A DNA stretch of 64,000 bases from Sphingomonas sp. AR_OL41 (GTDB lineage: Bacteria; Pseudomonadota; Alphaproteobacteria; Sphingomonadales; Sphingomonadaceae). Position numbers and translations under genes: made by a program. The DNA lies in assembly GCF_029911635.1 (NCBI RefSeq), contig NZ_JARYTI010000001.1, positions 1 through 64,000 on the forward strand. Reading direction: 5' to 3'. The notes below the pieces were generated by a model, which did not search any database, had not been told where the DNA came from, and worked only from the letters and a program-made list of their open reading frames with translations. Numbering within the stretch: the first letter of the stretch is position 1; every line of letters starts with the position of its first letter. Below, one piece after another: positions 1 through 9,139 of the stretch.

Positions 1-1
1 C

Positions 2-1102
2 AGCGATGGCGCGCGGTTGCAGCGCGTCGTCCGCCGGCAACGCGTGGCGGGTCTGGTGCACGGCGCGCTCAAGGCAGCCGCAGCCGAGGTGCCGCCGCCG
101 GCAGGTCCGGCGATCGGTCACAGCGCGGCCGGCATCATCCGCAGCAGCATGACCGGCGCCGCCGAGACCGCCCGGCTGATGCAGTTGATCGGGAATGCGG
201 GCTATCCGGTGTTGACGGTCAAGGGCGCCGCCCTCGCCGCGCTGGTCTATGGAACGATCACGCTCAAGCACAGCAAGGATATCGACCTGCTGATCCTGCC
301 CGAACATGCGCAGGACGTCATCGCGCTGCTCGAGGTGGACGGCTATCACATCACCTTCCCGGCGGCACAGCTAAGCCCGGCGCAGCGGGCGATGCTGACG
401 CACTATGGCAAGGATGTCGCGATGCGCCGGCCGGGTCCCTATCCACAGCTCGAGCTGCACTGGCGGATGTTCGGCAATCGCGCGCTGCTGCCGACCGTCA
501 CCGCCAACGCGCCGCGTCAGACGGTGGTGCTATCGGGCGGAGTCAGGGTCGAGACGCTCGCGCTGCCCGATCTCTATGCCTATCTCACCGTGCACGGCAC
601 CGGCGATGGCTGGTCGCGGCTCAAATGGCTCGCCGACCTCAACGCGCTGCTCGCGCCGCTCGATGCCGCGACGATCGCCTCGCTCCACGCGCATGCCGAG
701 CGGCTCGATGCGGGACGCTGTTCGGCGGTGTCGCTGCTGCTGTGCGCTGAGCTGCTCGCGCTGCCGCTCGATGCAGCGCTCGTCGCGCAACTGCGTCGTT
801 CGCGCCGCGTCCGCATGCTGGCAAATCTGTGTCGTCGACTAATGATCCCGGCCGATGGTGGCGCGGAGCTGACCACCTGGCGCGGCGGACAACGCCTGCT
901 GCTGCTGGTACAGTTGCTGATGGCGGGCGGGCTGCAATATTATTTCGAGATGTTGCGCTGGACCTTGTTCATCCAGACCGACCTTTACCGCAGCAAGGCG
1001 CCGCCCTCGCTCTACTTTCTCTATCCGCTGGTGCGCCTGCCGCTGTGGCTGGGCCGCCGCGTCGGGCTGGTTGCGGAACCGCGGGCGGAGAAGGGCCAAT
1101 GA
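2..1102 (+). CDS. Nucleotidyltransferase family protein, 5' truncated by window edge
   Basis: The reading frame is open to the left edge, so the true start lies outside the window; the first internal start is a TTG at 17. The protein resembles the nucleotidyltransferase-fold family often found in lasso-peptide and other RiPP clusters. Counting from the TTG, residues 64-80 carry the VLTVKG...Y segment and residues 86-92 carry a S-K-D-I-D motif, whose two acidic residues would bind metal in this fold. The C-terminal third is helical and hydrophobic. The stop overlaps the next start (ATGA), so it is coupled to the B2-type protease gene. Substrate unknown; transfer of a nucleotide to a peptide or to a kinase product is inference from context. 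Confidence 0.8.
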   Translation, partial: SDGARLQRVVRRQRVAGLVHGALKAAAAEVPPPAGPAIGHSAAGIIRSSMTGAAETARLMQLIGNAGYPVLTVKGAALAALVYGTITLKHSKDIDLLILPEHAQDVIALLEVDGYHITFPAAQLSPAQRAMLTHYGKDVAMRRPGPYPQLELHWRMFGNRALLPTVTANAPRQTVVLSGGVRVETLALPDLYAYLTVHGTGDGWSRLKWLADLNALLAPLDAATIASLHAHAERLDAGRCSAVSLLLCAELLALPLDAALVAQLRRSRRVRMLANLCRRLMIPADGGAELTTWRGGQRLLLLVQLLMAGGLQYYFEMLRWTLFIQTDLYRSKAPPSLYFLYPLVRLPLWLGRRVGLVAEPRAEKGQ

Positions 1103-1584
1103 GCCTTCGTCTCCGCCGGCGCTGGAAAATGTGGCGTCACCGCGTCAATCGCTCACGCCAGGTCGGCCATCGCGAGCGCCTGTTGCTCGCCGAGGCGATC
1201 TGGAATCTCGCGGCGGCGCGTTTCCAGCTCGCCACCCAGCCCTTTCCGCAGATCGCGCGGCGGCTCGGCGGCTTCGTGACGCCCGGCCACGCACGCGCCT
1301 CCGTCAAGCCGGCCGGCCCCGATGAGGAGGCGATTGCGGCAATGGTTGGCTGGGCGGTAACCAGGGCCGCACGGCACGTGCCGTTCAAGGCTGTGTGTCT
1401 GCCGCAAGCGATGGCGGCCAAGGCGATGCTGGCGCGCCGTGGCATTGCCAGCGTCATTCATTTCGGCACGCGCCGCGGCGAAGCGCTGACGCTCGCTGCC
1501 CATGCGTGGGTCGATGCCGCCGGCGTCGAGGTGACGGGCTATCCCGTCGAAGACAAATTCACCGAGATCGCGTGCATCGCCTGA
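1099..1584 (+). CDS. Lasso peptide biosynthesis B2-type (transglutaminase-like) protease
   Basis: A 161-residue protein of the B2 family, the cysteine proteases that cut the leader from lasso precursors. The expected Cys-His-Asp triad is visible as C100 (in AVCLPQA), H135 (in AAHAWVD) and D139. Length and the basic N-terminus match the family. The ATG overlaps the stop of the nucleotidyltransferase gene and its own stop overlaps the GTG of the kinase gene, so the three genes form one translational unit. No precursor peptide or asparagine-synthase-like cyclase is visible; these could lie to the left of the window. The family call is strong; the product it matures is unknown. Confidence 0.88.
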   Translation: MSLRLRRRWKMWRHRVNRSRQVGHRERLLLAEAIWNLAAARFQLATQPFPQIARRLGGFVTPGHARASVKPAGPDEEAIAAMVGWAVTRAARHVPFKAVCLPQAMAAKAMLARRGIASVIHFGTRRGEALTLAAHAWVDAAGVEVTGYPVEDKFTEIACIA

Positions 1585-2492
1585 CCTATCGCTATCGGTT
1601 CGGCGGCCTGGCGATCGACTCCACGATCGCGCTCGCCGGCGCGCGGCGCGTCGACCATGTCGGCGAGGGACATCATCTCGACCTCCTGTTCCATCAGGGG
1701 GGGGCGCCGCGGGCGGATAGCGATGTATTCACTTGGACGGGGCGCTATGGCCTGAAGCTCGGGCGGATTGGCGAGCAATGGCATTTCAGCTCGCGCTTCG
1801 ACGGCACCTTCATCGTCGACCCAGCGATCTCCCGACTCGACGTCCATGCTGCTGACGAGGTCCTGACGCCTGCAGCGATCGACGTGCTCACCCGCCGCAT
1901 TTTGCCGCGGCTGGCGATCGAAACCGGCGCGTTCACGGTGCATGGCGCCGCCCTGATCCGTGACGGCGCCGCGATCCTGCTGTTGGGCGAATCCGGCGCC
2001 GGCAAATCGACCCTCACCGCCGCGCTGGCACAGGCCGGCTGGTCGATCGCCAGCGACGACATGACGATCATCCGCTTCGACGATGCCACGCCCTGGGTCC
2101 ACCCCGGCGCGACCGGTGTCTGCCTGTGGCCCGACACGCGGGCGGCGCTCGATCTCGATCCCGCGCGCTGCCTGGCGATGCCGGGCTATGACGTCAAGCT
2201 TCGCTTCGAACCCGAAGATCGCCCCGAAGCGGACCCCGCGCTGCTTCGCGCGGTGGTGTTCCTCGAGCGCAGCAGCGAGGCCATGGCACCGCGCCTCGAG
2301 CCGATGCCGATCCGCGACGCGGTGCGACGGGCGACGCGCCAGCTCATCGCGCTGGATCCTACCGCGCCACGTACTAGTGCGGTTCATCAGCTGGTTCAGA
2401 TGCTGGCCGGGGCACGGCCCGTCAAGCTGACCTATCCCAGCGGCTATGCCGCACTGCCCGCCGTGACCGATCTGCTTGCCAGCCTGCCCTGA
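1572..2492 (+). CDS. HprK-related kinase
   Basis: 306 residues from a GTG that overlaps the end of the B2 gene. A Walker A motif GESGAGKST lies at residues 139-147, followed by a conserved SDD at 161-163, and HGAAL near 124-128; this is the pattern of the C-terminal kinase domain of HPr kinase/phosphorylase. There is no sign of a PTS HPr substrate nearby. Known relatives sit in RiPP clusters, including lasso clusters in which a kinase phosphorylates the precursor peptide, and are often found with a PqqD-like protein, as here. Peptide phosphorylation is therefore the likely role but is inference. Confidence 0.85.
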   Translation: MHRLTYRYRFGGLAIDSTIALAGARRVDHVGEGHHLDLLFHQGGAPRADSDVFTWTGRYGLKLGRIGEQWHFSSRFDGTFIVDPAISRLDVHAADEVLTPAAIDVLTRRILPRLAIETGAFTVHGAALIRDGAAILLLGESGAGKSTLTAALAQAGWSIASDDMTIIRFDDATPWVHPGATGVCLWPDTRAALDLDPARCLAMPGYDVKLRFEPEDRPEADPALLRAVVFLERSSEAMAPRLEPMPIRDAVRRATRQLIALDPTAPRTSAVHQLVQMLAGARPVKLTYPSGYAALPAVTDLLASLP

Positions 2493-2496
2493 GCCG

Positions 2497-2751
2497 TCAG
2501 GCCAGGAGCCCCTTGTCGCGCGCCGTGGCGATAAACTCCGCCACTGCCGCCGCGACCTCGCCCTCCGATACGCCATGCCGCGCGCTCAGCGTCGCGACGA
2601 TCGCCGACACGTCTCCGCCCGAAGCGATGCCGCGCCAGATATCGGCGGCAGTGCCGTTGAGCACATGATAACGACCGTCGCGCACGTCGAACAAGGCAAG
2701 CTCACCGGGCACATTTTGCCACGAGACATGGTCTGGAATGGTTAGCGTCAC
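2497..2751 (-). CDS. PqqD-like peptide chaperone (RiPP recognition element)
   Basis: 84 residues from a GTG preceded by GGGGAG at a good distance. The sequence has the PqqD hallmarks: a beta-hairpin (GELALFDVRDGRYHVLN) followed by GTAADIW and a helical C-terminus. Such domains bind leader peptides and deliver them to modifying enzymes; in lasso systems the equivalent is B1. It is convergent with the kinase gene, with 4 bases between stops, so it is expressed separately, probably from the gap shared with the gene at 2881. The pairing of a PqqD-like protein with an HprK-related kinase is a recurring one. The partner peptide is not visible. Confidence 0.85.
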   Translation of the reverse strand: MTLTIPDHVSWQNVPGELALFDVRDGRYHVLNGTAADIWRGIASGGDVSAIVATLSARHGVSEGEVAAAVAEFIATARDKGLLA

Positions 2752-2880
2752 GATTAACTCCCCGCGTGCCGTGCGCTCTAGCGCGTCGCACCGAATCCGC
2801 AAATCGCGCGGCGCGATTGCCTCCCCATCGAAACGGCCCGATAGGAACCGCAACGCTCGACCGGGATTTAACGACAGCCG

Positions 2881-3576
2881 ATGATCAAGGTCGCCAGCTA
2901 CAATATCCACAAGGGCATTGGCCTCGACCGTCGTCGCGACCCGCGCCGCATCCTCGACGTGCTGTGCGAGATCGATGCCGACATCATCGCACTGCAAGAA
3001 GCCGACCGACGTTTCGGCCCCCGGCTCTGCGTGATCGACCCGCACTTGCTCGCCGAGCACAGCCCGTGGAAAGCGATCGCGGTGGGCGATCGGCCGGCGA
3101 GCATGGGCTGGCACGGCAATGCGCTGCTGGTGCGCAAGGAAGCGCGCGTCATCGCCACCAACGTCATCCATCTACCCGCGCTCGAACCGCGCGGCGCCGT
3201 TTCAGCGGATATCGATAGCGGTGGCGCGGTCGTCCGGGTGGTCGGCATGCACCTCGATTTGTCGGGCCTGCGGCGGCGGCGGCAGGCGCATTCGATCGTC
3301 ACGCATGTCCAGGCCGACGGCGCGCGACACCCGACCGTGATGATGGGCGATCTCAATGAATGGAGCGCGCATGCCGGGTGCCTGCGCGACTTCGCGCATC
3401 ACTTCCGTTTCGCCGCCACGGGGCCGAGTTTCCACGTCCGCCGTCCCGTCGCGGCGCTTGACCGGATTATGCACACGCCCGACTTGCGGGTCGTCGATTG
3501 CGGCGTGCACAGCAGCGCGATATCACGCCGCGCGTCCGACCACCTGCCGATCTGGGCCGAGCTGGAAAGCCACTGA
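2881..3576 (+). CDS. Endonuclease/exonuclease/phosphatase (EEP) family protein
   Basis: 231 residues. EEP-fold catalytic motifs are present in order: SYNIHKG (N8), LQEADRR (E40, metal ligand), GDLNEW near residue 155 and the C-terminal SDHLPIW. These enzymes cleave phosphodiester bonds in nucleic acids or phospholipid headgroups. There is no signal peptide. The stop overlaps the ATG of the patatin-like gene (TGATG), which fits a lipid-related role, but this is inference from context only. The exact substrate cannot be told from sequence. Confidence 0.85.
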   Translation: MIKVASYNIHKGIGLDRRRDPRRILDVLCEIDADIIALQEADRRFGPRLCVIDPHLLAEHSPWKAIAVGDRPASMGWHGNALLVRKEARVIATNVIHLPALEPRGAVSADIDSGGAVVRVVGMHLDLSGLRRRRQAHSIVTHVQADGARHPTVMMGDLNEWSAHAGCLRDFAHHFRFAATGPSFHVRRPVAALDRIMHTPDLRVVDCGVHSSAISRRASDHLPIWAELESH

Positions 3577-5870
3577 TGCGCGAGAAGGAACTCCGCCTCG
3601 CTTTGGTCTGCTATGGCGGCATCAGCCTCGCCGTCTACATGCACGGCATCACCAAGGAGATCTGGCGGCTCGCGCGTGCCAGCCAGGCGTTTCACGGCGA
3701 CCAGACGCCGCAATCGGGCAGCCAGGCGATTTACCACGCCCTGCTCACGGAAATCGAGCAGCACAGCAATCTGCGCCTGCGCGTGCTGATCGACATCGTT
3801 GCCGGGGCGAGCGCGGGCGGCATCAACGGGGTGTTTCTCGCCCAGGCGATATCGACCGGCCAGTCGCTTGAACCCCTGACAAAATTATGGCTCGATTCGG
3901 CCGATGTCGAGGCGCTGGTCGACCCGACCCAGGCGCCCAAGTCGCGCTTCTCCAAGGCCTGGGCGATGCCGCTGACCTGGATGGCGGCGCGGCGCAGCGG
4001 CACCAGCGTCGACGCACTGGTCGAACCGGGCACGCGCGCCGAGGTCCATGCCAAGCTGTCGCACTTCATCCGCTCGCGCTGGTTCGAGCCGCCGTTCGGC
4101 GGCGAACTGTTCACCGGCCTGCTGCTCAATGCGCTCGATGCGATGGCGGCGAGCGAGCGCGGCGCGCGCTTGCTGCCGCCCGGTCAGCCGCTCGACCTGT
4201 TCGTGACGATGACCGATTTCCGCGGCCATCCCGAACGGCTCAAGCTCAATTCGCCGCCCGAGGTGATCGAGACCGAGCACCGCCTGATTGCCTCCTATGG
4301 CGATCACGGCGAGCGGCGCGACACGCTCGCGCACCCGGCCGAGCTGGCCTATGCCGCGCGGGCAACATCGAGCTTTCCCGGTGCGTTTCCTCCCTTCACC
4401 ATCGCAGAACTCGATGCCGTGCTGCGCAAGCGCAACGTCGACTGGCCCGGCCGCATGGCGTTTCTCGAGCGGATATTGCCACAGCATAGCGCGGCGCAGG
4501 CGGCCGAATCGACGGTGCTGATCGACGGTTCGGTCCTCGCCAATGCGCCGTTCCGCCCGGCGATCGACGCACTGCGGGAGCGCCCGGCGCGGCGCGAAAT
4601 CGACCGGCGCTTCGTCTATATCGACCCGCAGCCGGGCGTGAAGATCCACTTTGGCGACACCTCGGCCGAATCGCCCGGCTTCTTCCAGACGATCATCGGC
4701 GCGGTCTCCGAGCTGCCGCGCCAGCAGCCGATCCGCGACAATCTCGAGGCCATCGCCGAAAAATCACGCCGCATCGAAAGCATGCGATCGATCATCGCCG
4801 GCATCCGCAGCGAGGTCGAAAGCGCGGTCGAATCACTGTTCGACTACACCCTCTTCCTTGATTCGCCGACCCCGTCACGCCTCGCCGCCTGGCGCAACAA
4901 GGCGCAGCATGCCGCCGCCAGGGCCGCCGGTTACAGCTATGCCGCTTACGGCCGATTGAAACTGTCCGGCGTCGTCGAAGGCATCGCGCAACTTCTCTAT
5001 CACGCCGGCGGCGAACTCGGCCCGGAGCGCTGGCAACAGATCCGCAGTGCGGTCGGCGCGGCGGTCGCGGCGCGCGGTTTCGACCAGATGACGTCGAGCT
5101 TTTCCGGCGGCGGTAGCAAGGAGGCGATCGATTTCCTGCTCTCCTACGATCTCGGATTCCGGATCCGTCGCATGCGCCTGCTCGCGCGGCGCCTGTCGGA
5201 ACTCGAATCCGAGCATGAGGAGGCCGATCTCGAACCGATCCGCGAGGCGATCTATCTGTCGCTGGCCGATTATCTCGAGTGCAAGCGGACCGAGCGCCAT
5301 GCCCATCTGCGCCGCGACGTCCGCCTGATGCGCGGCGATGCCGGGCCGCTGCTCGACAAGATCGCGCTGTCGCTCAACATGAACGGCATCGACCGCGCGA
5401 CCGAGGCCCGTTTCGCCACCGCGCTCGACGGGCTGGCGCGCGACATCAAGCGACCGATCCTGCTGACCTATCTCGGTTTTCCCTATTACGACGTCGCGAC
5501 GCTGCCGATGCTGCAGGGCGAGGGCCTCGACGAATTCGATCCGATCAAGGTCGATCGCATCGCGCCGGACGACGCCCGGTCGATCCGCGCTGGCGGTGCC
5601 GCGGCGACGCTGAAGGGCATCCAGTTCAACACTTTCGGCGCCTTCTTCAGCCGCGCCTATCGCGAAAATGATTATCTGTGGGGCCGGCTGCACGGTGCCG
5701 AGCGGATGATCGACATCACGCTCTCGACGCTCGACGCCGCCGCGATGCTGCCCGCCGCGCGCGTCGCCGCGATCAAGCGCGCCGCGTTCCTCGCGATCCT
5801 CGACGAGGAGGCGCCGAAACTCGCCGCCGTCCCGGAATTGATCGAGACGATCAGGCGCGAGATCGGCTGA
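3576..5870 (+). CDS. Patatin-like phospholipase (large, bacterial type)
   Basis: 764 residues. The patatin catalytic dyad is visible: the nucleophile elbow GASAG with S79, and the DGS motif with D317. The oxyanion region YGGISLAV at 13-20 precedes it. The domain covers about the first 350 residues; the remaining 400 are helical and match the long patatin-related family of alpha- and actinobacteria. No signal peptide is seen, so it probably acts on the cytoplasmic face of the membrane as a lipid acyl hydrolase. Coupled to the upstream EEP gene by a one-base overlap. Confidence 0.87.
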   Translation: MREKELRLALVCYGGISLAVYMHGITKEIWRLARASQAFHGDQTPQSGSQAIYHALLTEIEQHSNLRLRVLIDIVAGASAGGINGVFLAQAISTGQSLEPLTKLWLDSADVEALVDPTQAPKSRFSKAWAMPLTWMAARRSGTSVDALVEPGTRAEVHAKLSHFIRSRWFEPPFGGELFTGLLLNALDAMAASERGARLLPPGQPLDLFVTMTDFRGHPERLKLNSPPEVIETEHRLIASYGDHGERRDTLAHPAELAYAARATSSFPGAFPPFTIAELDAVLRKRNVDWPGRMAFLERILPQHSAAQAAESTVLIDGSVLANAPFRPAIDALRERPARREIDRRFVYIDPQPGVKIHFGDTSAESPGFFQTIIGAVSELPRQQPIRDNLEAIAEKSRRIESMRSIIAGIRSEVESAVESLFDYTLFLDSPTPSRLAAWRNKAQHAAARAAGYSYAAYGRLKLSGVVEGIAQLLYHAGGELGPERWQQIRSAVGAAVAARGFDQMTSSFSGGGSKEAIDFLLSYDLGFRIRRMRLLARRLSELESEHEEADLEPIREAIYLSLADYLECKRTERHAHLRRDVRLMRGDAGPLLDKIALSLNMNGIDRATEARFATALDGLARDIKRPILLTYLGFPYYDVATLPMLQGEGLDEFDPIKVDRIAPDDARSIRAGGAAATLKGIQFNTFGAFFSRAYRENDYLWGRLHGAERMIDITLSTLDAAAMLPAARVAAIKRAAFLAILDEEAPKLAAVPELIETIRREIG

Positions 5871-5894
5871 GGCTGGCATATCGGGCGCAACCCG

Positions 5895-5900
5895 GTTAGC
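5895..5900 (+). promoter_or_regulatory. Putative -10 element close to lapA start
   Basis: GTTAGC ends 8 bases before the lapA ATG, with a weak CTGGCA 16 bases upstream (5873-5878). This placement would give a leaderless or nearly leaderless mRNA. Seen by eye only. Confidence 0.3.
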
Positions 5901-5908
5901 GTCGGGTT

Positions 5909-6271
5909 ATGCAGTTCCTCAAGATCCTGTTCTGGTGCCTGCTCGCGTTCGTCGCGGCGATCTTCACGATCGGCAACTGGACCAATGTGCCGATCCACCT
6001 ATGGGGCGGCCTGATCGCCGACGTGAACCTGCCGCTGCTGCTGCTGCTGACCTTTCTTGCCGGTTTGCTCCCGACCATGCTCTATTACAGCACGATCCGC
6101 TGGCGGCTGCGCAACCGCCTGTCGACGACCGAGCGCGCAATCAACGATCTGCGCAGCACGATGTCCTCACCCGCCCCGGCACTGGTTCCCGACGCTGCGC
6201 CTGAACCGGTGCCGGTCGATGTTGCCGCGCCGATGCCTGCACCGCCGCCGCCCCCCGGAGTATTGCTCTGA
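5909..6271 (+). CDS. LapA family (DUF1049) inner-membrane protein
   Basis: 120 residues with two membrane helices (about 5-22 and 38-58) joined by a short loop, then a basic, helical, cytoplasmic segment and a Pro/Ala-rich tail. This is the LapA/DUF1049 pattern; the E. coli member works with LapB in controlling lipopolysaccharide synthesis through FtsH and LpxC. Its stop overlaps the pyrF start (TGATG), an arrangement known from other bacteria where lapA lies beside pyrF. Function in sphingolipid-containing sphingomonads may differ. Confidence 0.8.
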   Translation: MQFLKILFWCLLAFVAAIFTIGNWTNVPIHLWGGLIADVNLPLLLLLTFLAGLLPTMLYYSTIRWRLRNRLSTTERAINDLRSTMSSPAPALVPDAAPEPVPVDVAAPMPAPPPPPGVLL

Positions 6272-6960
6272 TGAGCAACCGCATCTTCGTCGCGCTCGAC
6301 ACGCCGGACTTCGAAAAGGCGCGCATGCTCGCGACCAAGGTCCGCCACCATGTCGGCGGCATCAAGCTCGGGCTCGAATTCTTCATGGCCAATGGCCGTA
6401 CGGGCGTACACGAGATGGCCGAGCTCGGCCTGCCGATCTTTCTCGACCTCAAGCTGCACGACATTCCCAACACCGTCGCCAAGGCGATCCAGGCGCTGCG
6501 CCCGCTTTCCCCGGCGATCCTCACCGTTCATGCCGCCGGTGGCCGTGCAATGATGGAAGACGCCAAGGCCGCCGCGCCGACCGGCACAAAGGTCGTCGCC
6601 GTGACCATGCTGACCAGCCTCGACGATAGCGATCTCGCGACCACCGGCATTCGCGGCAGCGCGCACGACCAGGTGGTACGACTGGCCGAACTGGCGATGG
6701 ACTCGGGCGTCGACGGCATCGTCTGCTCGGGCGAGGAAGTCGCAGCAGCACGCAAGCTTTGGCCCAAGGGCTTCTTCGTCGTCCCCGGCGTGCGTCCCGC
6801 CAATGGCAGTGCCTTGAGCCAGTTTGGCGGCGACCAGAAGCGTGTGGTCACCCCCCGCGCCGCGCTCGACGCCGGTGCGTCAATCATCGTGGTCGGCCGG
6901 CCGATCACCCAGGCGGCGGACCCGGATCACGCCGCGCGCGAGATCGAAGCGACGCTGTAA
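6271..6960 (+). CDS. pyrF: Orotidine 5'-phosphate decarboxylase
   Basis: 229 residues. Converts OMP to UMP, the last step of de novo pyrimidine synthesis. The OMPDC signature LDLKLHDIPNT lies at about residues 59-69, with the Asp-Lys-x-x-Asp catalytic set, and the phosphate-binding VVGRPIT is near the C-terminus. Length is normal. It is translationally coupled to lapA and followed 51 bases later by trpF. Confidence 0.96.
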   Translation: MSNRIFVALDTPDFEKARMLATKVRHHVGGIKLGLEFFMANGRTGVHEMAELGLPIFLDLKLHDIPNTVAKAIQALRPLSPAILTVHAAGGRAMMEDAKAAAPTGTKVVAVTMLTSLDDSDLATTGIRGSAHDQVVRLAELAMDSGVDGIVCSGEEVAAARKLWPKGFFVVPGVRPANGSALSQFGGDQKRVVTPRAALDAGASIIVVGRPITQAADPDHAAREIEATL

Positions 6961-7011
6961 GCGACCGACTCGGGCTTTGCCCGTGGGCGCCAACCGTCTA
7001 CGGGCCCTCGC

Positions 7012-7647
7012 ATGACCAGCGCAAAAATCTGCGGCCTTTCGACGCCCGAGACGCTCGACGCCGCAATCCGCGGTGGGGCGAGCCATGTCGGCTTCGTGTT
7101 CTACCCCGCCTCCCCTCGCCATCTGAGCCGAGCGCGGTCCGCGCAACTCGCCGCCCGCGTGCCGGGGCATGTGCGACGCGTCGGCGTGTTCGTCGATCCC
7201 GATGACGCGACGATCGAGGCGGCGACCGCCGATGGCCAGCTCGAGATACTCCAGCTGCACAAGGTAAATGCGACGCGCGCCGCAGCGATCAAGGCGAAAA
7301 CCCGACTTGAGATCTGGGGTGCTGTCGCGGTCAAGACGCGGACCGATCTCAACGCAGCGCAAGGATTCGGCGGTGCGGTCGATCGCATCCTCTACGATGC
7401 CAAGACCCCGCCCGGCGCGACCCTGCCCGGCGGCATGGGCGTGCGCTTCGACTGGACGCTGCTCGAAGGCTTTCGTCATCCCCTGCCCTGGGCGCTGTCG
7501 GGCGGACTCGATCCGCTCAACGTCGGCGACGCGATCCGCCAGACCGGCGCATCGTTGGTCGACGTCTCGTCCGGGGTCGAGCGCGAGCCCGGGATCAAGG
7601 ACAGCGGCAAGATCGCCGCCTTTCTCGAGGCCGTCGCCGCGCGCTGA
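7012..7647 (+). CDS. trpF: Phosphoribosylanthranilate isomerase
   Basis: 211 residues. Third step of tryptophan synthesis, an Amadori rearrangement of PRA to CdRP. KICG at 5-8 provides catalytic C7 and RILYDAKTP provides D129; GFVFYPASPR at 27-36 is typical. Family length is normal. It heads the trp group trpF-trpB-orf-trpA; the 71-base gap to trpB contains a possible separate promoter. Confidence 0.95.
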   Translation: MTSAKICGLSTPETLDAAIRGGASHVGFVFYPASPRHLSRARSAQLAARVPGHVRRVGVFVDPDDATIEAATADGQLEILQLHKVNATRAAAIKAKTRLEIWGAVAVKTRTDLNAAQGFGGAVDRILYDAKTPPGATLPGGMGVRFDWTLLEGFRHPLPWALSGGLDPLNVGDAIRQTGASLVDVSSGVEREPGIKDSGKIAAFLEAVAAR

Positions 7648-7681
7648 TCGCCCCTGCGGCGACCACCCCGATCGAACAGGG

Positions 7682-7708
7682 TTGGCGCACGCCGCGCACC
7701 TGCTAAAG
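7682..7708 (+). promoter_or_regulatory. Putative trpB promoter
   Basis: TTGGCG (7682-7687) and CTAAAG (7703-7708) with 15 bases between, ending 10 bases before the trpB ATG. The same CTAAAG box recurs upstream of nuoA. If used, the transcript would start within a few bases of the start codon. Confidence 0.35.
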
Positions 7709-7718
7709 CGACCGCGTC

Positions 7719-8948
7719 ATGAACACCCCCAACTCATATCGCGCCCAGCCCGACGATCGCGGGCATTTCGGCGATTTCGGCGGCCGCTATGTCGCCGAGA
7801 CGCTGATGCCGCTGATCCTCGAACTGGAGGCCGCCTATCGCGCCGCCAAGGAAGATCCCGGCTTTCACGCCCAGTTCGACGATCTGCTCGAACATTATGT
7901 CGGCCGCCCCTCGCCGCTTTATTATGCCGAGCGACTGACCGAGGCCCTGCGCGACGGCGCGCCCGCCGGCAAGGGTGCGGAGGTGTGGTTTAAGCGCGAC
8001 GAGCTCAACCATACCGGCGCGCACAAGATCAACAATTGCGTCGGCCAGATCCTGCTCGCGATGCGCATGGGCAAGACGCGGATCATCGCCGAGACCGGTG
8101 CCGGCCAGCACGGCGTCGCCACCGCGACGGTATGCGCGCGCTTCGGCCTGCCCTGCGTCATCTATATGGGCGCCAAGGACGTCGAGCGGCAGCAGCCCAA
8201 TGTGTTCCGCATGAAGCTGCTCGGCGCGGAGGTGATCCCGGTCACCTCGGGCGCCAACACACTGAAGGACGCGATGAACGAGGCGCTGCGCGACTGGGTC
8301 GCCAATGTCCATGACACCTTCTACATCATCGGCACCGCGGCGGGCCCGCACCCCTATCCCGAGCTGGTGCGCGACTTTCAGAGCGTGATCGGCCGCGAGG
8401 CACGCGAGCAGATGCTCAAGCGCACCGGCAAGCTGCCCGACCTACTGGTAGCGGCGATTGGCGGCGGATCGAACGCTATCGGCCTGTTCCACCCCTTCCT
8501 CGATGATCCCAGTGTCAGGATGCTCGGCGTCGAGGCTGCCGGGCACGGGCTCGACAAGGAACATGCCGCGAGCCTTGCCGGCGGGGCACCCGGCATCCTT
8601 CACGGCAACAAGACCTTCCTGCTGCAGGACGAGGACGGCCAGATCACCGAGGCGCATTCGATCTCGGCCGGGCTCGACTATCCCGGCATCGGCCCCGAAC
8701 ATGCCTGGCTGCGCGAGATCGGCCGCGTCGACTATACCAGCGCAACCGATGTCGAGGCGCTCGACGCCTTCCAGCTGCTGTGCCGCACCGAGGGTATCAT
8801 TCCCGCGCTCGAACCCAGCCACGCCATCGCCGCCGTCGCGAAGGTCGCGCGGACGATGGACCGCGACCAGGTGATCCTCGCCAATCTGTGTGGCCGCGGC
8901 GACAAGGACATCTTCACCGTCGCCGAGGCGTTGGGGACGAAGATATGA
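7719..8948 (+). CDS. trpB: Tryptophan synthase beta subunit
   Basis: 409 residues. PLP enzyme that condenses indole with serine, in complex with TrpA. The PLP-lysine motif [10 protein letters not shown] gives K103; GGGSNAIG binds the cofactor phosphate; the C-terminal CGRGDKD is present. The N-terminal [15 protein letters not shown] is typical of TrpB1, the TrpA-dependent type. Its stop overlaps the ATG of a small membrane-protein gene that separates it from trpA. Confidence 0.97.
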
Positions 8949-9139
8949 ACGTCCCTGGTTTGATCACTGGCACCATTGTTGGCGCGCTGGCCGCTTTGCT
9001 GGTTCGCGAACTCAACCAGTTTGGGCTTGCCTTGGCCGACTGGAGCCTTGCCGCACCGCGCGTCGGCGAAGCGCTGCTCATAGGAGCATTAGTGGGCATG
9101 ATTTCGCAAATTTTCGCTCAGAAGCGGGCTAGCCGATGA
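8945..9139 (+). CDS. Small two-helix membrane protein between trpB and trpA
   Basis: 64 residues, starting at an ATG that overlaps the trpB stop (ATGA) and ending in an ATGA overlap with trpA. Two hydrophobic stretches (about 5-20 and 42-57) are joined by a loop with one Arg and one Asp; the C-terminus is basic. No family recognised. Base composition is lower in GC than trpB and trpA. The double overlap argues that it is translated. It may be a late insertion into the trp operon with no metabolic link. Confidence 0.65.

Follow-up and report, generated by a model that had tools for sequence, protein, structure and literature searches.

A nucleotidyltransferase–B2–kinase–PqqD gene block in Sphingomonas as a candidate trans-acting module of a split lasso peptide pathway

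Introduction

In the biosynthesis of pseudomycoidin the K protein phosphorylates the C-terminal serine and the N protein adds a hexose to the phosphate (PMC9266682, PMC8498205), and in the bsf pathway the B1 protein helps both K and B2 (PMC10368454). The gene set N, B2, K and B1 is already known from the paeninodin, pseudomycoidin and bsf lasso clusters. This report concerns the same set in a genome of Sphingomonas sp. AR_OL41 (G000; 5.88 Mb in 188 contigs), where it occupies positions 2–2751 of the window, the 64,000-nucleotide stretch of DNA analysed here, which corresponds to bases 1–64000 of contig C66. The unusual part is its location. Because the roles of N, B2, K and B1 are known in pseudomycoidin and bsf, the block can be read as that half of a lasso pathway which removes the leader and tailors the peptide, working in trans. 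We consider it probable, at roughly 70%, that this 2.7-kb block is a module whose trans-acting products serve lasso precursors encoded at other places in the genome. We infer the action in trans from the layout of the genome, and the catalytic steps and their order from characterised relatives.

Organization of the four-gene block

A first-pass annotation proposed that the block is part of a pathway for a ribosomally synthesised and post-translationally modified peptide (RiPP). It comprises genes for a nucleotidyltransferase (NTase), a leader peptidase, a kinase and a PqqD-like protein, of the B1 or RiPP recognition element (RRE) type, and is bounded on the right by two further genes:

2–1102, plus strand: NTase-fold protein, lasso N gene; PF14907; truncated at its 5' end by the contig boundary; DxD motif at 278–286
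1099–1584, plus strand: transglutaminase-like B2 leader peptidase; PF13471/NF033537; C100 and H135
1572–2492, plus strand: HprK-like peptide kinase, lasso K gene; P-loop GESGAGKST at 1986–2012; GTG start at 1572 suggested by the sequence
2497–2751, minus strand: PqqD-like protein (B1/RRE); PF05402; faces the kinase gene
2881–3576, plus strand: endonuclease/exonuclease/phosphatase-family gene; right boundary, outside the module; same neighbour in genomes G263, G233, G196 and G062
3576–5870, plus strand: patatin-like protein, TIGR03607; right boundary, outside the module

All four genes lie where the first-pass annotation had placed them, with their key residues present and their frames open, and there are no internal stops either in the window or in the related genome G263. 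The first three overlap, NTase with B2 at 1099–1102 and B2 with the kinase at 1572–1584. What had been described as the edge of an island is the edge of the contig and assembly and not the border of a larger island; C66 starts inside the NTase gene.

The NTase scores above the cut-off of PF14907 (E 5.1e-37; 128.2 bits, cut-off 31.2), a family that we take to include the N genes of the psm and bsf clusters. Both aspartates of its DxD motif, D93 and D95, are invariant in seven of seven aligned homologues, in agreement with the motif originally assigned. The predicted model (mean pLDDT 72) is best matched by the MenT1 toxin and ANT(2''), matches that do not decide the substrate. The model also weakly resembles FKRP, a sugar-alcohol-phosphate transferase. 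The B2 protein lies above the cut-offs of both PF13471 (E 2.5e-24; 85.9 bits, cut-off 26) and NF033537, lasso_biosyn_B2 (E 6.5e-24; 84.8 bits, cut-off 33), and C100 and H135 are invariant in all nine aligned homologues. A profile search of the PDB with B2 gave no match.

For the kinase, the P-loop is confirmed and the HprK-like identity comes from the fold of the model and the residues retained. The predicted structure (pLDDT 92, pTM 0.91) matches PDB chains of phosphoenolpyruvate carboxykinase and HPr kinase with a best E-value of 5e-7, at TM-scores of only 0.3–0.5 when normalised by query length. Residues H123, K144 and D162 are invariant in nine of nine homologues (the adjacent Asp is Glu in one), and the His, Lys and Asp residues reported for lasso kinases are thereby retained. 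The PqqD-like assignment also holds, with PF05402 exceeded (E 5.6e-16; 59.1 bits, cut-off 23.4) by a gene on the minus strand. The protein falls below the NCBIfam lasso PqqD exception models (45.6 versus 70; 30.6 versus 80) and below the cut-off of the HprK_rel_A system (TIGR04352/TIGR04353; 33.4 versus 35), and it is most similar to the PqqD protein encoded ahead of the cyclase in several complete clusters.

The same chromosomal site in related genomes

Two relatives, G233 (locus L096) and G196 (L097), carry at this site a complete lasso cluster consisting of NTase, B2, precursor, kinase, Stf0-type sulfotransferase, PqqD, an asparagine-synthetase-like cyclase and a second PqqD, placed before the same endonuclease and patatin genes as the block in the window. 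This arrangement supports the earlier proposal of a RiPP pathway, here of lasso type. The first-pass annotation had also suggested a search for the four-gene set in other sphingomonads, and the set occurs alone in G263, the closest relative found (contamination estimate 7%), in which only NTase, B2 and kinase/PqqD are seen at the site, with no precursor or cyclase. In G062 only NTase and B2 are present. As the cluster is complete in G233 and G196 and reduced to NTase and B2 in G062, what the window and G263 have here is a lasso cluster site in reduced form.

Such graded content, from a complete cluster through four genes to two, would also be expected if the four genes were the leftover of a lost cluster and no longer functional. 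However, two species have kept all four genes, with open frames, and the ratio of nonsynonymous to synonymous substitution rates (dN/dS) between the window and G263 is 0.22 for NTase, 0.20 for B2, 0.27 for the kinase and 0.17 for PqqD. These values are near those of the remote cyclase and sulfotransferase (0.25 each) and above those of the flanking genes (0.10 and 0.15). From this sequence comparison the four genes look maintained under purifying selection, somewhat less strictly than their neighbours, and we regard a non-functional remnant as unlikely. Free B2 genes compared in other species pairs give dN/dS of 0.16–0.39, the highest in G243/G118.

A cyclase-free pathway would fit the block less well; its kinase, NTase and PqqD would then act on a linear phosphopeptide, comparable to those of the Bacillota LPP family. 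The LPP family uses an SpI signal-peptidase homologue, whereas the block has a lasso B2; no SpI-like gene is among the four genes, no genome-wide search for SpI having been made. Moreover, no precursor was found at the site, and the relatives with a full cluster there carry a lasso-type cyclase. Such a pathway is therefore very improbable.

The left flank and the contig break

A precursor and a cyclase had been expected immediately to the left of the block. A 1.8-kb piece of G263 just left of its NTase gene matches both the end of contig C122 (235553–235713 of 235715; 89%) and the start of C66, so C122 is the left neighbour of C66, with a gap of about ten bases as judged against G263. The last 16.7 kb of C122 hold housekeeping-type genes, read by eye, followed by a tRNA-Thr (ARAGORN). 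Queries with two cyclases and the sulfotransferase gave no tblastn match in the C122 end or the 64-kb window. Nor was a short open reading frame (ORF) combining the [Y/W]xxPx[L/V/I] leader motif with a core of lasso type, Gly/Ala/Ser1 with Asp/Glu at core positions 7–9, found in window positions 1–9000 or in the C122 end, another precursor design being possible. The genome has 11 PF00733 places, none of them on C122 or in the locus itself; the sole one on C66 lies at 158.9 kb, beside a canonical-type B gene.

The expected precursor and cyclase are thus missing from both the C122 end and the equivalent flank of G263. The first-pass annotation had held that a RiPP role would be unlikely should the flank hold only polysaccharide or exosortase genes and no relative have a precursor; the flank indeed lacks a precursor, but relatives do carry one at this site. 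A polysaccharide or exosortase context was rejected on the housekeeping-type genes and tRNA-Thr read by eye, on which no Pfam search was run.

The window starts at base 1 of C66, which invites the explanation that a precursor and cyclase stood adjacent on the left and were lost at the contig break. The gap is only about ten bases, however, no cyclase, sulfotransferase or motif-bearing short ORF occurs in the 16.7 kb beyond it, and G263 is without a cyclase there too. An assembly artefact of this kind is the least probable of the explanations considered, and a full cluster cut by the contig end was rejected, as the C122 end holds no detectable lasso gene.

To the left of the island in G263 (L095:1433–10300) there is an integrase with PF13356 and PF22022 domains, together with other genes that look mobile on reading. 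A partial tRNA-Thr sequence adjoins this integrase region, giving this end of the island the look of an integration site.

Cyclases and precursors elsewhere in the genome

Cyclases were assigned to class I at E below 1e-205, the next match standing at 1.5e-160. The genome has two, at C31:60980–62872 and C177:37777–39669, for which the best match is the NCBIfam lasso cyclase model (1.5e-78 and 3.5e-78), under its cut-off. The class-I precursor profile finds just two places, C31:59913 and C11:79454. At C31 the locus contains the precursor, a 2-oxoglutarate-Fe(II) oxygenase, a RiPP radical S-adenosylmethionine C-methyltransferase (TIGR03975, above cut-off) and PqqD; at C177 the cyclase is accompanied by PqqD; and the C11 precursor at 79.4 kb adjoins an Stf0 sulfotransferase. 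A third lasso-like locus without B2, of another class, lies at C11:66–73 kb and comprises a cyclase, a kinase, a sulfotransferase-like gene, PqqD and a precursor-like ORF. The C31, C177 and C11 loci are all more than 35 kb from their own contig ends, and tblastn with the NTase, B2 and kinase of the window returned no match in the C31 (18 kb), C177 or C11:74–90 kb regions. In G263 the matching precursor, sulfotransferase, PqqD and cyclase stand together on contig C195, where no B2, kinase or NTase was found in the 12.4 kb examined.

Of the four PF13471 places in this genome, one is in the window and the other three adjoin canonical-type cyclases on C66 (159–161 kb), C121 and C22. The B2 of the window is the only one that does not adjoin a canonical-type cyclase. 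The canonical-type lasso loci are L112 (C66, ~159–161 kb), L113 (C121) and L114 (C22); short precursor-like ORFs are seen in L113 and L114.

Among congeneric precursors, the register of the sequence is that of known lasso geometry. In 23 of 24 class-I precursors, with the leader Trp set to 0, residue +16 is Gly, Ala or Ser and core position 8 or 9 carries Asp or Glu; the remaining one has Asn at core position 1. Shuffled sequences gave a mean of 2.5 of 24 and a maximum of 10 in 2000 shuffles, a control that flatters the rule because the W+16 register and the rule were chosen after the sequences had been viewed. Four rows are left out of the count: L171 duplicates L056, L124 and L190 belong to other classes, and L194 comes from a different genus. 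Counted from the predicted cleavage site, leader position −2 is Ala in 19 of the 24 precursors (loci L047–L170) and Thr in the other 5; Thr is what published lasso precursors have there, apart from a recent case of Ile/Val (PMC10368454). The leader shares its W-x-x-P motif with paeninodin-like precursors (PMC13381572). The register of W motif, residue 1 and acidic residue 8 is kept in the two class-I precursors of the genome studied here, whose predicted cores are GISFKPND-GLSNLS and GSGSLTGE-ALNNAS. Each has Ser as its last residue, and it is Ser that is phosphorylated in paeninodin (PMC9266682).

The C-terminal residue also varies with locus content. Loci with a methyltransferase of one family have 12 precursors, of which 11 end in Thr or Thr-Pro and one (L128) in Ser; the methyltransferase-bearing class-I loci are L048, L053, L054, L055, L056, L122, L123, L126, L128 and L169. 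In class-I loci without that methyltransferase, all 12 precursors end in Ser.

Survey of congeneric genomes

Across 295 congeneric genomes, class-I cyclases occupy 24 places in 17 genomes and class-I precursors (E ≤ 1e-9) 24 places in 15 genomes. A B2 gene lies within 15 kb of 5 of the 24 cyclases and none within 15 kb of the other 19; for four of these (G089, G194, G263 and C79 of G207) that distance also includes a contig end. Strong B2 matches, of at least 200 bits, are nevertheless concentrated in the hosts of class-I cyclases: they occur in 15 of these 17 genomes and in 11 of the remaining 278 (Fisher P 1.6e-16, uncorrected for relatedness); at E ≤ 1e-10 the figures are 17 of 17 and 47 of 278. 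The input to the co-occurrence count was B2 rows of at least 180 bits and four weaker rows in G131, G109 and G267, the weaker rows left out being from other genomes, none of them class-I genomes. In the single-contig genome G047 two class-I cyclases stand 1.6 and 2.0 Mb from the only B2 match.

These figures bear on the possibility that B2-less loci use a canonical fused B protein, or no dedicated protease, and that the set in the window serves another substrate. The genome does have three canonical-type loci with their own B, and the title of Zyubko 2019, known to us through reference lists, speaks of pseudomycoidin formation without leader and without leader peptidase. Against this, strong B2 genes are enriched among the hosts of class-I cyclases, and the B2 of this site adjoins a class-I precursor in G233 and G196; we judge this explanation improbable.

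The free B2 genes occupy different sites: the tRNA-Thr/endonuclease site, a position beside a phospholipase-D-like gene (by eye), one beside a 679-aa gene, and that in G053, where B2 stands at the place at which G082 has kinase, sulfotransferase, PqqD and B2. We lean towards a broader reading in which the free B2 of Sphingomonas, alone or with kinase, NTase and PqqD, would be a shared trans module for several lasso loci that come and go, with leaders that mostly have Ala and not Thr at −2. In the genome studied here one pathway would be spread over C11 (precursor and sulfotransferase), C177 (cyclase and PqqD) and the module in the window. Beyond the genus the precursor profile is rare, with four matches in a sample of 397 family genomes, two of them in other genera; in one of these, G305, B2 adjoins the cyclase, and in the other, G464, no B2 is labelled in the 15 kb examined.

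Absence of the window proteins was checked by tblastn in L047–L060, in a set of 18 loci and in the 64-kb window. The simple gene caller missed or truncated some genes, among them the L050 PqqDa gene, the L050 and L053 precursors, the B2 genes of L096 and L097 and the kinase of L097; the last three were placed by other searches or by tblastn. Weak kinase matches (146/151 genomes) were not used as relatives, being mostly short P-loop matches that presumably represent ordinary HPr kinase. Tandem genes that by eye resemble phage tail-collar genes adjoin lasso loci in different species (L060:13258–14945, L106:3127–4804, L110:6395–8068, L124:5032–6296 and L125:8635–9908).

Discussion

If the block acts in trans as proposed, the PqqD protein would bind the W-x-x-P-x-[I/V/L] motif in the leaders of the remote precursors, and the kinase would then phosphorylate the C-terminal Ser of the precursor. 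B2 would cut the leader before Gly1 (or Ala/Ser1), whereupon the remote asparagine-synthetase-like cyclase would join residue 1 to Asp/Glu 8 or 9. Finally, the NTase may add a glycosyl or nucleotidyl group to the phosphate.

Several observations weigh against this proposal. At the protein level, the kinase stays under every family cut-off (PF07475, E 1.5e-4; TIGR04352 of the HprK_rel_A system, E 5e-12 and 45.5 bits, cut-off 200). Of the C100-H135-D139 triad assigned to B2 in the first-pass annotation, the first two residues stand but D139 is replaced by Asn in two of nine aligned homologues, so the third residue is less certain. Within the genome, no precursor was found beside the C177 cyclase, and in principle the loci without B2 might be served by the canonical-type B proteins, of which there are three. 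In the survey, the Fisher test ignores relatedness and several hosts are close species; two of the 17 class-I genomes, G109 and G267, have distant B2 homologues only (51–64 bits); and a strong B2 is present in 11 genomes that lack a class-I cyclase, the B2 context having been viewed for some. In four of those 11 (G062, G075, G160 and G243) the B2 is free. Cyclase-kinase-PqqD loci of another class without an adjoining B2 are present in G075, G160 and G243, G160 also having one with B2, and G062 is too fragmented to judge for such loci. Outside the genus, the B2 of G305 adjoins its cyclase.

Both genome mining for lasso peptides and their heterologous expression are usually based on a single cluster with A, B and C, and a search of that kind would miss a split pathway. 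Should B2 work in trans, a cyclase-precursor locus of incomplete appearance may be functional, and its expression alone would fail for want of B2 and the kinase. Candidate partners can be named in one genome and in cultured relatives, and the question of action in trans is therefore directly testable.

Comparison with known systems

The psm and pade clusters of Bacillota resemble the block in having B1, B2 and an HprK-like kinase that acts on the C-terminal Ser, psm also having an NTase (PMC9266682, PMC8498205), and paeninodin-like precursors share the W-type leader motif (PMC13381572). They differ in that psm and pade are each described as a single cluster with A and C, whereas for the module in the window A and C lie elsewhere, it has no transporter gene, and the Stf0 sulfotransferase of its genome sits with a remote precursor.

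The bsf cluster of Bradymonas sediminis is similar in its set of A, B1, B2, C, D, K and N, in a kinase stimulated by B1 and in a Gly1–Asp8 ring (PMC10368454). In bsf, however, the genes form a single cluster, the kinase targets Ser3 and the precursor carries Ile at −2 (PMC10368454), whereas the sphingomonad precursors are predicted to have Ala or Thr at −2 and end in Ser, Thr or Thr-Pro. SyanK and SyanB2 of Sphingobium yanoikuyae belong to a sphingomonad phosphorylated lasso pathway with kinase and B2; the likeness is drawn from mentions in the cited papers (PMC9266682, PMC10368454).

For an unclustered lasso B2, no report was found in the open-licence literature among the matches listed, most subscription papers lying outside that scope. 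The nearest parallel is that of the unclustered lanthipeptide proteases, leader proteases located away from their RiPP cluster that were found by genome-wide correlation and verified experimentally (PMC8960859). That case involves another RiPP class and other protease families, and the protease in the window differs further in that it travels with tailoring enzymes.

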